From Spirochaetaceae bacterium (lineage in GTDB: Bacteria > Spirochaetota > Spirochaetia > DSM-27196 > PWMO01): a stretch of 64,000 nt of DNA. The DNA lies in assembly GCA_007693325.1 (NCBI GenBank), contig REDW01000081.1:1-64000 (forward strand), given 5' to 3'. The position numbers and the translations under genes are program-made. The stretch's first letter is position 1; each line of letters opens with the position of its first letter. Positions 24,344-31,801 of this stretch are shown here, piece after piece. Under the pieces are notes generated by a model. The model was given only the letters and a program-made list of their open reading frames with translations, searched no databases and was not told the DNA's origin.

Positions 24344-25369
24344 CTACTCTCCTTCCTCCGCGGCCAGCTCTTCGAAATCTTCCTGCTCGATGTCTTCCAA
24401 TTGGTCGATGATCTGAACCGCCAACTTGCTGCCCACCTGACCCGGCTTGCACAGAAACTTGGGGCGATTACCTATCTTGAGCACCATCGGGTCCGAGGTG
24501 CGAGTATTCTGTAACCGGATGACGTCTCCACCGCGCAGCGACAGCACATCGCGAACGGTCAGGTCCATAGCGCCTATCTCGGCAACCAGCGCAACTTCGA
24601 TAGTGGAGAGGCGGTCACGCAGAATATTGAGGTTCTCGGTAGTGGTGCCACGGCGAACCGAGGAATACCAGTACTGCGCCGAGAGCTTGGAGATGATTGG
24701 TTCGATTGTGAGATAGGGAATGCAGAAGTTCATCATGCCTTCAACGTCGCCAACCTTGGTTTCAAGGGTCACCAGCACCACCATCTCGGTTGGCGGTACA
24801 ATCTGGGCAAACTGCGGGTTGGTCTCGATCTGGCCCAGCCGTGGCCGCAGATCGATTACCTGGCTCCACGCCTCGCGCATGTTGCCGAGTACGCGAACGA
24901 TGATGCCTTCCATAACCGAACTCTCGATGTCGGTCAATTCGCGCATCACGTTGGTCCCCTCACCGTGACCGCCGAACAGGCGGTCAATGATCGAGAACGT
25001 GATTGCCGGATCGATTTCCAGGATTGCCGAGCCCTTCAGCGGATCCATGTTGATTACCGCGAGCGTGGTTGGATTGGGAATCGAGCGGATGAACTCTTCG
25101 TAGGTCAACTGATCCACCGACGCCACGTGCACCTGCACCAGGCTGCGCAGCTGGGCACTGAGGCTGGTAGTGGTGAGCCGGGCAAAGGTCTCGTGCATGA
25201 TCGAGACCGTTCTAATCTGTTCCTTGGAGAATTTATCCGGACGCTTAAAATCGTATATCTTGATTTTGCGCTGGCCGGTGGGTTGGCGACTTTCTTCGGT
25301 TTCTACATCTCCGGATGAAAACGCGGTCAGTAACTGATCGATCTCATCCTGAGAAAGGACCTCGGTCAT
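24344..25369 (-). CDS. fliM: Flagellar motor switch protein FliM
   Basis: The 341-residue product has the N-terminal CheY-binding peptide EVLSQDEIDQLLTAF, the middle CheC-like domain with DRLFGGHGE and a C-terminal SpoA domain (AMDLTVRDVLSLRGGDVIRL). It binds CheY-P and transmits the switch signal to FliG. GGAGAGGGGAG precedes the ATG. A 75-base gap to fliL contains a small hairpin. Confidence 0.97.
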   Translation of the reverse strand: MTEVLSQDEIDQLLTAFSSGDVETEESRQPTGQRKIKIYDFKRPDKFSKEQIRTVSIMHETFARLTTTSLSAQLRSLVQVHVASVDQLTYEEFIRSIPNPTTLAVINMDPLKGSAILEIDPAITFSIIDRLFGGHGEGTNVMRELTDIESSVMEGIIVRVLGNMREAWSQVIDLRPRLGQIETNPQFAQIVPPTEMVVLVTLETKVGDVEGMMNFCIPYLTIEPIISKLSAQYWYSSVRRGTTTENLNILRDRLSTIEVALVAEIGAMDLTVRDVLSLRGGDVIRLQNTRTSDPMVLKIGNRPKFLCKPGQVGSKLAVQIIDQLEDIEQEDFEELAAEEGE

Positions 25370-25425
25370 TGTGTAGTGCTCCCCTCTCCATTCCCAGCTG
25401 GAATTCTCTCACAGATCGCCGAGTT

Positions 25426-25443
25426 TTGCAACAACTGTTGCAA
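25426..25443 (-). other. Intercistronic hairpin between fliL and fliM
   Basis: TTGCAAC-AGTT-GTTGCAA forms a perfect 7-bp stem directly after the fliL stop. No T run follows, so it is more likely an RNA 3'-end or processing element than a terminator. Confidence 0.5.
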
Positions 25444-25444
25444 C

Positions 25445-26008
25445 TCAAAAATCAACAATCTGAAATGAGTCAAAAGCAACGTCCCGGATGCGTCCTGAAC
25501 GCATAATATTGTTGTTGATGCGGGTCACCAGATCCTGCTTGATTCGATTACGGTTCTCTACCCCCTCCAGTTCAGATACGCGCCGCGAGCTGAAATAGAG
25601 CAGGATCTCTTCGCGGATCTGAATGTTACGCTGGATCAGCTCGTTCTGCACGGCGCGGTTTTCCTGCTCGTAGCCGATGTGCGGCTGGACGATAAACGTG
25701 TGGCGCGCTTCATCGGCGGTCTGGCCGCGCAGCTCGCCGATCCCGCTGTACCAGTCGAGGATCGGCCGGCGGTCCGCGTAGGCCTCCGATTCAGCGGGTA
25801 TTCTCGATTGCGTAGCAAAACCGTCACCCATGAAGTTGAGCGTCACAACCACAATTGTCACAACGAAGATGACCGCTCCCAGCACGATCCCGGTCCACTT
25901 GAGAATCTGTATCACAATGCCGGGCAGGAAGCCGATCTTTCTTCCGCCCGAGGCTATCTCTTCGCCGGCAACCTCGTCTTCGGCGTCAAACAGTTCGTTG
26001 TCAGACAT
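25445..26008 (-). CDS. fliL: Flagellar basal-body-associated protein FliL
   Basis: The 187-residue product has an acidic cytoplasmic start, one membrane helix (WTGIVLGAVIFVVTIVVVTLNF) and a periplasmic domain ending NRIKQDLVTRINNNIMRSGRIRDVAFDSFQIV, the typical FliL end. It supports the stator around the motor. Gene order motA-motB-fliL-fliM supports the call. Confidence 0.95.
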   Translation of the reverse strand: MSDNELFDAEDEVAGEEIASGGRKIGFLPGIVIQILKWTGIVLGAVIFVVTIVVVTLNFMGDGFATQSRIPAESEAYADRRPILDWYSGIGELRGQTADEARHTFIVQPHIGYEQENRAVQNELIQRNIQIREEILLYFSSRRVSELEGVENRNRIKQDLVTRINNNIMRSGRIRDVAFDSFQIVDF

Positions 26009-26020
26009 CTCCCATACTCC

Positions 26021-26749
26021 TTACAGGTGCCCTTCGGTCAGAATAATTACGTCAACACGGCGGTTGTACGCGCGGCCTTCGGCGGTCTCGTTGCTTGTCA
26101 AAGGCGCCGTATCGGACAGCCCCATAACCTGGAAGCGATTTTCGGGAACCTGGTAGTCCTGCAGCAGACGGAAGGTATTCAAGGCGCGCTCGATAGATAG
26201 TTCCCAGTTTGTCGGCCACGGACCCTCGGGATCGGTCGGAATGCTGTCGGTATGACCCTCTATGCGGAAGGTGCGGTTGTCCAGCTGCTCCGAGCGCAGC
26301 AGATCAGCCAGCCGCACAAAGACGTTGCGCGACTGCTCGATATTCAGCTCAGCGCTGGCGGTCTCGAAGAATGCGTCGGCCGCCAGCGAGATAACCAGCC
26401 CGCGCTCGTCCTGCGTCACCCTGACCTTCTGCGAGCGGATCTCCGGTTCAAAAATGCTGACCGCGGTGCGTCGCGCCTCGTCAAGCGCACGACCGCGCTG
26501 CATGGAAGGCAGCGTCATGACGGTGTTGCCCAACTCGGCCAGACGGCCCTCCTGCAACGTGGCGCCACCGTCCATGCTGCCCAAACCGGCAAAAGCCGCC
26601 AGAATCAGCTCCAGCCGTTCGCCGTCAATGGTGGCCGCGGTGTACATCAGTACAAAGAACGTGAGCAGCAGCGTTACCATGTCACCGTAGGTAAGCAGCC
26701 AGTCGGCTGCGCCCTCGGATTGACGCTTCTTTCTTCTTCTGGGCCCCAT
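26021..26749 (-). CDS. motB: Stator protein MotB
   Basis: The 242-residue product has one membrane helix, with the ion-binding Asp in WLLTYGDMVTLLLTFFVLMY (D23). A periplasmic linker and an OmpA-like peptidoglycan-binding domain (FRIEGHTDSIPT ... ELSIERALNTFRLL) follow. It anchors the stator to the wall. It is six bases from motA. Confidence 0.97.
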   Translation of the reverse strand: MGPRRRKKRQSEGAADWLLTYGDMVTLLLTFFVLMYTAATIDGERLELILAAFAGLGSMDGGATLQEGRLAELGNTVMTLPSMQRGRALDEARRTAVSIFEPEIRSQKVRVTQDERGLVISLAADAFFETASAELNIEQSRNVFVRLADLLRSEQLDNRTFRIEGHTDSIPTDPEGPWPTNWELSIERALNTFRLLQDYQVPENRFQVMGLSDTAPLTSNETAEGRAYNRRVDVIILTEGHL

Positions 26750-26755
26750 GGCGTC

Positions 26756-27538
26756 TTAGTCCCTTCCGCTTTCCTGACGAATCACCTCCCGCTGGCGCGG
26801 AGGCAGGAACGAGACCAGTTTTTCAAGCAGAATTCGCGGATTATCGCCGGACTGGATCGAGAGAATACCCTCTATAATAACCTCTTTGGTACGGGTTTCC
26901 TCCTTATCACGGTCCTCGAGCTTGCTGCGAATTGGTATCAGCACCAGGTTGGCAAAGATGGCGCCGTACATCGTGGTGATCAGCGCCAGCGCCATACCGG
27001 AACCGATGGCGTCCTGGTCCTCGAGGCTGGCGAGCATCGCAATCAGACCGGCCAGCGTACCGATCATGCCGAACGCCGGCGCAATCTTGCCCCAGTCGTC
27101 AAACACCTTGATCCCGGTACCGTGACGTTCCTGGATCTGGGTGAGGTCATTATAGAGAATCGTCTTGATGATATCCGGGTCGGTACCGTCGACTACCAGT
27201 TGCAGCCCCTTGCGCATGAACTCATCTTCCACCTGGTCCATATTGTCTTCCAGCGCCAGAAGCCCTTCGCGGCGCGCGCGTTCGGAAAACCCGACCAGCT
27301 CATTGATGACCTTCTCCTCCTGCCAGTCCGGGATGCGCAGCGCGTGGTTGACGTACTTCATAACCCCCAGCATCCGGCTCAGCGGATTGGCAACCATCAT
27401 GGCCGCAAACGAACCACCGATAACCATGATGGCCGACGGCAGGTTCACGTACAGTTGAAGCGCACCGCCTGATGTGAATATGGCCATCACAATCAGAACA
27501 AATCCGGCAACAACTCCTACGATTGTTCCAAGATCCAT
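26756..27538 (-). CDS. motA: Stator protein MotA
   Basis: The 260-residue product has four membrane helices. The conserved GKIAPAFGMIGTLAGLIAML and GAIFANLVLIPI helices line the ion path, and a cytoplasmic loop with charged residues contacts FliG. GAGGAG precedes the ATG. Whether it uses H+ or Na+ cannot be told from this alone. Confidence 0.97.
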   Translation of the reverse strand: MDLGTIVGVVAGFVLIVMAIFTSGGALQLYVNLPSAIMVIGGSFAAMMVANPLSRMLGVMKYVNHALRIPDWQEEKVINELVGFSERARREGLLALEDNMDQVEDEFMRKGLQLVVDGTDPDIIKTILYNDLTQIQERHGTGIKVFDDWGKIAPAFGMIGTLAGLIAMLASLEDQDAIGSGMALALITTMYGAIFANLVLIPIRSKLEDRDKEETRTKEVIIEGILSIQSGDNPRILLEKLVSFLPPRQREVIRQESGRD

Positions 27539-27544
27539 GAAACA

Positions 27545-27742
27545 CTACTCCTCGTTCTTGAAGGCCCCGATTTGCCGCCGGTACTCGACAATACGATCAA
27601 AAACGGCCTGGTAGTCTTCCTGCACCACCAGGCGTTTTCCTGAAAGCATGATAAGCGTTGTATCCGGATTCGCCTCGATGTACTCGATCTGATGCGGGTT
27701 CACGTAGTAGCTCTTGCCATCGAGGCGACTGACCTGTATCAC
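27545..27742 (-). CDS. flbD: Flagellar protein FlbD
   Basis: A small protein of 65 residues (MIQVSRLDGKSYYVNPHQIEYIEANPDTTLIMLSGKRLVV...) that matches the FlbD family found between flgE and motA in spirochaetes and firmicutes. Its role is not well defined. The start is GTG with AAGGGG rather far upstream. Confidence 0.93.
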   Translation of the reverse strand: MIQVSRLDGKSYYVNPHQIEYIEANPDTTLIMLSGKRLVVQEDYQAVFDRIVEYRRQIGAFKNEE

Positions 27743-27759
27743 AATCTTATACTACCCCT

Positions 27760-29169
27760 TTAGCGCTTGAGTGTTAAGACTTCCTGCAGCATCTGATCCG
27801 CGGTCTGGATGGAACGCGAGTTTGCCTGGAAGCCACGCTGGGTTACAATCATGTCGGTGAACTCCTGCGACAGATCCACGTTGCTCATCTCCAGGGTACC
27901 GGCAATCAGTACACCCTTACCGGCGGTACCAGGAGCGCTGATATCGGCCAGCCCCGAGTTGATAGACTGCACGTAGGTGTTCTCACCAGCCTTCTCCAGG
28001 CCACCAGGATTGGTGAATGACGCCAGCGCTACCTGGCCCAGGATGCGGTTGGTGCCGTTGGAGAATATTCCGGTGATCTCGCCGGACTGATCGATGCGGA
28101 AATCTTCAAGATAGCCCATCGGGTAGCCGTTCTGGCGAAACACCTTGGTGGAGCTCTGTGAGCTGTACTGGGTCATGGAATCGGTAAACGCCCCGACCTG
28201 TCCCAGATTGAGCGTAAACTCCTGGGTTGCCGGTCCCTCGGGCAGTCCGGTATCGGGATCGATCGGGATAGACGCTTCGGGAACCTGGAAGGACAGATCG
28301 ACCGCCAGGTTGCCCTCGTCCAGTACGCCGCCCTCGGGGTTGGAAATCGACTGCAGTGTACCGTCGTTGGCAAACTCTACAATGAAGCTCTGCGTATCAG
28401 CGCTGGCCACACCGCCAACCGAAACGTTCTGCAGCACTTCATCCGCGGCTTCCGGACTGATCTGCACGTTGGCGTTCCAGCGGTTTGGCTCATCCTCGAT
28501 GCGTGTGAAATCAACGCGCAGCGTATGAGTATTGCCAAAGCTGTCGAAGATGTCGTATTCGACCGACCAGGTTCCTTCACGGACCTCGGCAGCGGTTGCG
28601 TCTGCGCCAATCACCGGCGTGTTCTTGTTGAGATTACTCGCCAGAAAAACCTCGGTGGTGGCGGATGCCGGATCCTTTCCGCCAACCGGGATAGTCAGAT
28701 CTTCTATAGCTGCAGAGGTGTTGATGATCGACTCTCCGTCGAGCTGTTCGGCCATCCAGCCCTGCACACGCATGCCGTTGGCAGGATTGACCAGTACGCC
28801 TTCCTCGTCCAGCCCAAACGCTCCGGCGCGGGTGAAGAAGCTCTGGTCGCCGCTGCGTACTACGAAGAAGCCGCTGCCCTGCACCGCAACGTCGCTCTTG
28901 ACTCCGGTGGTCTGCAACGAACCCTGCGTGTGAATGGTATCGATAGCTGCAGTCTGCACACCGAGCCCGACCTGTTTAGGATTGACTCCGCCGACTTCCT
29001 CGCGCGGGCGCGCCGCGCCCTCCATCATCTGCGAGATCATGTCGTGAAAGTTTACACGCCCACGCTTGAATCCCGTGGTGTTCACATTGGCAACGTTGTT
29101 ACCGATTACGTCCATCCTGACCTGGTGGTTCTGCAGACCGGAAACGCCGGCCCATAGTGAGCGCATCAT
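27760..29169 (-). CDS. flgE: Flagellar hook protein FlgE
   Basis: The 469-residue product has the rod/hook N-terminus MMRSLWAGVSGLQNHQVRMDVIGNNVANVNTTGFKRGRVNF and C-terminus (SNVDLSQEFTDMIVTQRGFQANSRSIQTADQMLQE), with a large variable centre. In Treponema, hook subunits crosslink through Lys165 and Cys178 (lysinoalanine). Here Lys165 is present, but residue 178 is Ser (FLASNLNK), and the whole protein contains no Cys. See findings. Confidence 0.97.
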   Translation of the reverse strand: MMRSLWAGVSGLQNHQVRMDVIGNNVANVNTTGFKRGRVNFHDMISQMMEGAARPREEVGGVNPKQVGLGVQTAAIDTIHTQGSLQTTGVKSDVAVQGSGFFVVRSGDQSFFTRAGAFGLDEEGVLVNPANGMRVQGWMAEQLDGESIINTSAAIEDLTIPVGGKDPASATTEVFLASNLNKNTPVIGADATAAEVREGTWSVEYDIFDSFGNTHTLRVDFTRIEDEPNRWNANVQISPEAADEVLQNVSVGGVASADTQSFIVEFANDGTLQSISNPEGGVLDEGNLAVDLSFQVPEASIPIDPDTGLPEGPATQEFTLNLGQVGAFTDSMTQYSSQSSTKVFRQNGYPMGYLEDFRIDQSGEITGIFSNGTNRILGQVALASFTNPGGLEKAGENTYVQSINSGLADISAPGTAGKGVLIAGTLEMSNVDLSQEFTDMIVTQRGFQANSRSIQTADQMLQEVLTLKR

Positions 29170-29181
29170 GGCGAAGCCCCC

Positions 29182-29616
29182 TTATTCCTGTACTCTTCGA
29201 ACTTGGCTGTAGTCATAATAGGTTCCATTGACCATCAACTGCGGGTAGTCACCGCCGGTTACCTCGCTGACGCGCCCGCTGACGGTCCGCTCTCCGTGCA
29301 CAACCTCGACCTCCCTGCCGAGCAGATTAAGAGCCTGCCCCGAAGAGATAAGCCGTGCCAGCTTGGAGAACTCGCCGGACATGTTGGTCATCTGCTCCAG
29401 CGACGAGAACTGCGCCATCTGGGCAATGAACTCGCGGTCTTCCATTGGCGCCGTTGGGTCCTGGTTCTGCAACTGAGTAATCAACAGCTTCAGAAAGTCA
29501 TCCTTGCCCAGGCTCTGCGTTGGCGGCTTACCCTCGTTGAGCTCGTTGTTGAAACGATTTACCCTGCTTTCCAGGCGCGCCAGCTGGTCGCCGCTCATCA
29601 TGTTGGAGATTTCCAT
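29182..29616 (-). CDS. flgD: Hook-capping scaffold protein FlgD
   Basis: The 144-residue product has the FlgD N-terminal signature LGKDDFLKLLITQLQNQDPTAPMEDREFIAQMAQFSSLEQM. It is short: it keeps the N-terminal half and a small beta segment but lacks the large C-terminal FlgD domains. It lies between fliK and flgE. Confidence 0.95.
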   Translation of the reverse strand: MEISNMMSGDQLARLESRVNRFNNELNEGKPPTQSLGKDDFLKLLITQLQNQDPTAPMEDREFIAQMAQFSSLEQMTNMSGEFSKLARLISSGQALNLLGREVEVVHGERTVSGRVSEVTGGDYPQLMVNGTYYDYSQVRRVQE

Positions 29617-31177: not shown

Positions 31178-31801
31178 TCACTGGTCGGCTCTGATGGTCA
31201 TCTTGCGCTGAATCTCTGCCGCGCGTTGCGGCGGGAATTGCGACAACCAGAACGGAACCAGCGAGAATTCACCAGCCTCGGCTGCACGTTCTTCGGTAAT
31301 CTGCAGCGTCTCGATCAGCAGCTGGTCTTCAAAGCCCTGCAGAATGGCAACCGCATTGTCCGGTGGCATACCGGTCAGGTTGCGCGAAATCTGCTCGACC
31401 CTTGCTCTTCTATTCTCGTCCTCCCGCACCCGTTGGTTGAATGAAATCTCGCGGTCCTGCAGCTCCGCCTCGCGCGCCTCGATCTCGTCGCGCAGCAGAG
31501 CCAGCTCGGCGGTGGTGTTCTCAAGCTCGCGCTCGCGGCGGGCGATGTCCTCGGAAACCAGCTGCAGAGCCTGTTCGCGCTTGGCGAGCCGCGCGCTGTC
31601 CAGCAGGATTGCGTCGTCCGCCGGGTCTACTTCGGTTGGGCGCCCGACGCCAAAAAGCGCCGCGACCGGGGTTATCACCGCGCGCGCGTCTATCAGCCCC
31701 AGGTAGTTGAACCAGAGGGTCCCGCCCACAAGCAGGACAAGTACCAGCAAGATAAGTACCAGGATCCGTGGAGCTGCCCCCACTCTGCTATAGCGAGCCA
31801 T
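31178..31801 (-). CDS. flbB: FlbB, spirochaete flagellar collar protein (MotE-like)
   Basis: The 207-residue product has one N-terminal membrane helix (ILVLILLVLVLLVGGTLWF) and a long coiled coil (about 75-130, REQALQLVSEDIARRERELENTTAELALL). The helical end NLTGMPPDNAVAILQGFEDQLLIETLQ resembles the MgtE N-terminal/MotE domain. In Borrelia FlbB builds the base of the periplasmic collar around the motor. Its position between fliJ and fliK is the spirochaete order. It overlaps fliJ by 14 bases. Confidence 0.88.
   Translation of the reverse strand: MARYSRVGAAPRILVLILLVLVLLVGGTLWFNYLGLIDARAVITPVAALFGVGRPTEVDPADDAILLDSARLAKREQALQLVSEDIARRERELENTTAELALLRDEIEAREAELQDREISFNQRVREDENRRARVEQISRNLTGMPPDNAVAILQGFEDQLLIETLQITEERAAEAGEFSLVPFWLSQFPPQRAAEIQRKMTIRADQ

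Follow-up and report, generated by a model that had tools for sequence, protein, structure and literature searches.

Serine at the lysinoalanine crosslink position of a spirochaete flagellar hook protein, and the Cys/Ser alternation of this position in Spirochaetota and a second phylum

The window analysed here (the 64,000 nucleotides at positions 1 to 64,000 of contig REDW01000081.1, assembly GCA_007693325.1, Spirochaetaceae bacterium) carries on its minus strand an intact periplasmic-flagella gene cluster around flgE (27760..29169), which encodes a flagellar hook protein of 469 aa (NCBIfam NF004241, 575 bits against a cut-off of 469; fold match to 6ndx/6ndt). The hook assembly gene flgD (29182..29616, minus strand; NF007197, 155 bits against a cut-off of 129) lies directly upstream, and the presence of flbB (31178..31801, minus strand; NF047368, 222 bits against a cut-off of 110), which encodes the periplasmic flagellar collar protein, marks the flagella as being of the spirochaete periplasmic type. 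Downstream of flgE, on the same strand, lie an flbD-like gene, motA, motB, fliL and fliM (24344..27742); motB and fliM exceed their NCBIfam cut-offs, motA and fliL are homologous and score below them, and the flbD-like gene, for which no NCBIfam family match was found, is named by position. FlaA is also encoded in the source genome, and the fold of FlgE, its operon context and the accompanying periplasmic-flagella genes are those of a lysinoalanine-forming spirochaete hook protein.

In the hooks of Treponema denticola and Borreliella burgdorferi the crosslink joins Lys165 to Cys178. The initial annotation of the window read Lys at residue 165, Ser at residue 178 (within FLASNLNK) and no Cys in the whole of FlgE, all of which the translation bears out: Lys165, the predicted Michael donor of the crosslink, is encoded by AAG (28675..28677, minus strand), Ser178, the predicted dehydroalanine precursor, by AGT (28636..28638, minus strand), and the Cys count is 0. 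Asn179 (AAT, 28633..28635, minus strand), a structural residue in T. denticola, follows, and Thr341 and Lys342 (28144..28149, minus strand; alignment columns 341/342, coordinates counted from the start codon at 29169) align to Thr334 and Lys336 of T. denticola. The window protein thus has in common with the T. denticola and B. burgdorferi proteins the register, the D1-D2 fold, K165, N179 and the T334 and K336 equivalents, and departs from the Cys-type subgroup (Treponema, Borrelia, Brachyspira) by Ser178 and the absence of Cys; these last two are one and the same fact and not independent evidence, since Cys-type FlgE in the Spirochaetota rows nearly always possesses exactly one Cys, at position 178. 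The register at 165/178 is secure against structure: phmmer aligned the window protein without gaps through the 165-178 stretch to 6ndx_B (6NDX being the lysinoalanine-crosslinked T. denticola FlgE dimer), placing Ser178 opposite the Cys178 position, where that chain reads Ala (...YAANLDK), and FlgE of a Treponema-like genome reads YACNLDKRLPE at the same site. Furthermore, the AlphaFold model (which covers D1-D2 with pLDDT of about 90, the D0 ends being poor) superposes on chains C and D of 6ndx with 2.1-2.5 A rmsd, and on 6ndt, the dehydroalanine intermediate, with 2.4 A.

The distribution of these residues was followed in FlgE drawn from a 393-genome sample of the phylum, from 46 genomes belonging to the window's order and from named genomes in public databases, and the Spirochaetota counts rest on 165 non-redundant rows. 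Families f12 (genus g18) and f14 of the class Spirochaetia gave no FlgE match group-wide, which would be expected of spirochaete relatives without motility. Every one of the 165 rows has Lys at position 165; at position 178, 94 rows have Cys and the other 71 have Ser; and position 179 is Asn throughout, although the latter is not diagnostic because most FlgE of other phyla carry Asn there. The window protein conforms at all three, Ser (as in Leptospira) standing for the dehydroalanine precursor ahead of Asn179, and its Ser178 is not peculiar to the source genome, being the rule in its order and found in 71 of the 165 rows phylum-wide. Among Ser-rich columns, 178 stands alone in alternating with Cys and nothing else; in the control columns Ser gives way to Ala, Thr, Asn, Gly or further residues. 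Such strict Cys/Ser alternation would look like the outcome of continued selection for a residue capable of yielding dehydroalanine; a need for a small polar residue on structural grounds may also produce it. Moreover, K165 is unchanged throughout the pure-Ser clades (13.3 substitutions per site in total), a conservation that is not decisive by itself because about 19% of the columns in Ser-type rows never change either.

Replacement of Cys by Ser at this site is already known. In Leptospira interrogans FlgE, Ser179 stands for the Cys and forms lysinoalanine with Lys166 in vitro and in vivo, the C178S variant of T. denticola FlgE still crosslinks in vitro, and Brevinema andersonii FlgE also has S178 (PMC10691653). 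The window protein shares with that of Leptospira the Ser for Cys, the conserved Lys and the spacing of 13; Leptospira additionally uses Lys145 and Lys148, whereas the window protein lacks any Lys between residues 91 and 165, so that a single linkage through K165 would be expected and the Leptospira-type combination (Ser178 with extra reactive Lys near 145/148) is present in its Ser only. On these grounds we consider the window's FlgE likely to be a hook protein of the serine type that forms lysinoalanine. FlgE would assemble first, Ser178 (domain D2) of one subunit would shed water to become dehydroalanine, and Lys165 (in the D1-D2 linker) of a neighbouring subunit would add to it, so that a lysinoalanine bond would link the two subunits; the product would be identical to that of Treponema and Borrelia, with water in place of hydrogen sulfide as the leaving group. 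We infer the occurrence of this reaction in the source organism from the chemistry of Leptospira. Ser is a poor leaving group.

It may be, although we regard it as rather unlikely, that the crosslink is made and that dehydration of Ser depends on a separate helper, be it an enzyme, a group that modifies the Ser, or alkaline conditions in the periplasm of a soda-lake inhabitant. Recombinant Leptospira FlgE showed a lower reactivity and required pH 10-11, and its authors suggested unknown cellular factors (PMC10691653); furthermore, the nearest named FlgE (98%) comes from sediment of Cock Soda Lake, a lake of pH 10 (PMC6704655), in which base-driven elimination would be easier. Against such a dependence, crosslinking proceeds unaided in recombinant Leptospira FlgE and in T. 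denticola C178S, and Ser-type FlgE occurs across many families, Leptospira included, so that alkalinity is not generally required; soda-lake pH was rejected as a general driver of Ser178 on account of this wide distribution.

A hook devoid of the crosslink, in which Ser178 and Lys165 are conserved only because their hydrogen bonds at the D1-D2 interface help the hook to pack, and the subunits are held non-covalently as in Salmonella, is in our judgement improbable. Ser is a common residue, many FlgE columns are equally conserved, and the reaction of Ser proceeds slowly in vitro (PMC10691653), all of which would suit such a hook. Packing, on the other hand, needs neither Cys nor Ser at 178, given that none of the 94 FlgE rows from flagellated bacteria that are neither Spirochaetota nor Riflebacteria (Bacillota, Gemmatimonadota, Eisenbacteria and mixed named genomes) has either residue there, the position being mostly Gly (Lys165 is present in about a fifth of these rows). 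Moreover, dehydroalanine can be formed from Cys and Ser alike, the spirochaete site is never occupied by Ala, Thr or Gly, and the Ser-type relative Leptospira does crosslink. The initial annotation had left three possibilities for the lineage, namely that it lacks the crosslink, makes it by dehydrating Ser, or stabilises its hook in another way: the second is well supported, by Leptospira and by Cys or Ser in 165/165 rows, and the first is disfavoured because no third residue occurs at 178 and K165 is invariant. As for an artefact (a misread codon, an error of register or an additional flgE with Cys), the draft state of the source genome (150 contigs, 3.5% contamination) speaks for it, and the chance is nonetheless negligible, as FLASNLNKNT occurs in all five congeners (98% identity in one case) with Ser encoded by AGT or AGC, Ser178 is held by 38 of the 39 rows of the window's order, the alignment to 6ndx has no gaps at the site, and a search of the source genome (97.5% complete) for a second flgE found none, the remaining matches looking like FlgG and FlgF. 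The three doubts attached to the original observation (a sequencing error at 28636-28638, another residue at 178 upon alignment, Cys in a second flgE) are thereby set aside.

Within Spirochaetota, parsimony on an FlgE tree built without the key columns counted about nine switches between Cys and Ser, at least five of which are forced by well-supported branches. A simple symmetric model assigns Ser to the common ancestor of the Spirochaetota and Riflebacteria/Wallbacteria FlgE (0.95) and to the root of Spirochaetota; under it the class Spirochaetia would have started out with Cys, and the window's order with Ser once more. These ancestral states imply that the window's lineage, unlike Leptospira, sits within a class whose ancestral state is reconstructed as Cys, and that it probably represents a Cys-to-Ser reversion, as judged from a single gene with a limited outgroup. 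The one Cys row of the order belongs to genome G398 (MAG PL24a_bin.20; L126 / L042), whose single Cys-type FlgE is nested among the Ser-type ones; this apparent Ser-to-Cys switch would offer a natural pair of close relatives for comparing both chemistries. Isolated Ser-type proteins are likewise found within Cys-type spirochaete groups (L047 of Sediminispirochaeta SpSt-1173, L049 of Guaymas B32_G16, L151 of G096 and L162 of G278). Two further genomes stand apart: G246 (family f16, 1.4 Mb), taxonomically outside the window's order, has a Ser-type FlgE (L007) nested in the order's FlgE clade, by transfer or misplacement, and G399 (a draft with 7% contamination) has two similar flgE copies (L121 and L144), both Ser-type, that may reflect a true duplication or mixed strains. 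Switching between AGY and TCN serine codons at 178 was rejected as proof of passage through Cys, since control Ser columns switch equally often.

The residue pair extends beyond the spirochaetes. Among named non-spirochaete relatives, FlgE of Ca. Wallbacteria (L090) has Lys165 and Ser178 with the spirochaete spacing, and in the phylum that unites Ca. Wallbacteria and Riflebacteria (the genome of L100 included) Lys165 is present in 30/30 primary FlgE rows, of which 16 have Ser178 and 14 have Cys178; these rows slightly outnumber the genomes, a few coming from one genome through two loci. Loci with the pair in this phylum (that of genome G431) include L090, L273, L284, L300 and L302-L316. Divergent FlgE-like paralogues (L301, L317, L318 and L319; genomes G463-G466) keep Ser178 and have Phe, Asn or Ser in place of Lys165, which indicates that the pair can be lost. 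The Riflebacteria/Wallbacteria proteins (L090, L273, L300 and others) thus share Lys165, Cys or Ser at 178 and the spacing with spirochaete FlgE, and differ from it in belonging to non-spirochaetes and in being longer (about 670-860 aa against 469 aa in the window). Gene trees of the N- and C-terminal parts recover the FlgE of the two phyla as sisters (support 97/95); a full-length tree that separated Riflebacteria from spirochaetes was dropped, as it suffered from misaligned inserts in the long Riflebacteria proteins. The sister grouping could stem from old gene transfer as well as from common descent. Searches for FlbB in Riflebacteria gave weak matches, none over the family cut-off, and sub-cut-off matches were also obtained in four control genomes; a search of the available literature found no report of hook crosslinking in Riflebacteria/Wallbacteria.

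The partner residues of the T. denticola site behave less uniformly. The window keeps both, and some relatives within its order lack the T334 or the K336 equivalent. Across Spirochaetota the K336 equivalent is other than Lys in 21 of the 71 Ser rows as opposed to 1 of the 94 Cys rows, and among Riflebacteria rows with a readable C-terminus it is kept in 12/12 Cys-type and 4/11 Ser-type proteins. This is only a hint, drawn from few independent switches, that the Lys336 equivalent may matter more for the Cys route. Independent-pair tests for a joint loss of the T334/K336 equivalents with Ser had at most five supported contrasts, which put significance out of reach, and the association was not retained.

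The clade-wide Ser-type hook protein of the window's order adds a member to a kind already known, and the extension of the residue pair to Riflebacteria/Wallbacteria is the more interesting outcome of these sequence comparisons. We tentatively put forward, as a reading that falls somewhat short of an even chance, that the lysinoalanine crosslink of the hook did not originate with the spirochaetes: the Ser form would have arisen in the common ancestor of the Spirochaetota and Riflebacteria/Wallbacteria FlgE, in both phyla it would have given way on more than one occasion to the more reactive Cys, and some lineages, that of the window among them, would later have returned to Ser. The spirochaete crosslink site tolerates exactly two residues, which have been toggled repeatedly, and Cys is consequently unfit as a marker of crosslinking; the Ser type reaches past Leptospira and Brevinema to a whole spirochaete order, the named members of which include soda-lake genomes. 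The occurrence of the residue pair in a second phylum questions the published view of the crosslink as a spirochete adaptation and, if the proposed ancestry is true, the hooks of Riflebacteria, which possess no clear spirochaete collar gene, would likewise be covalently welded.
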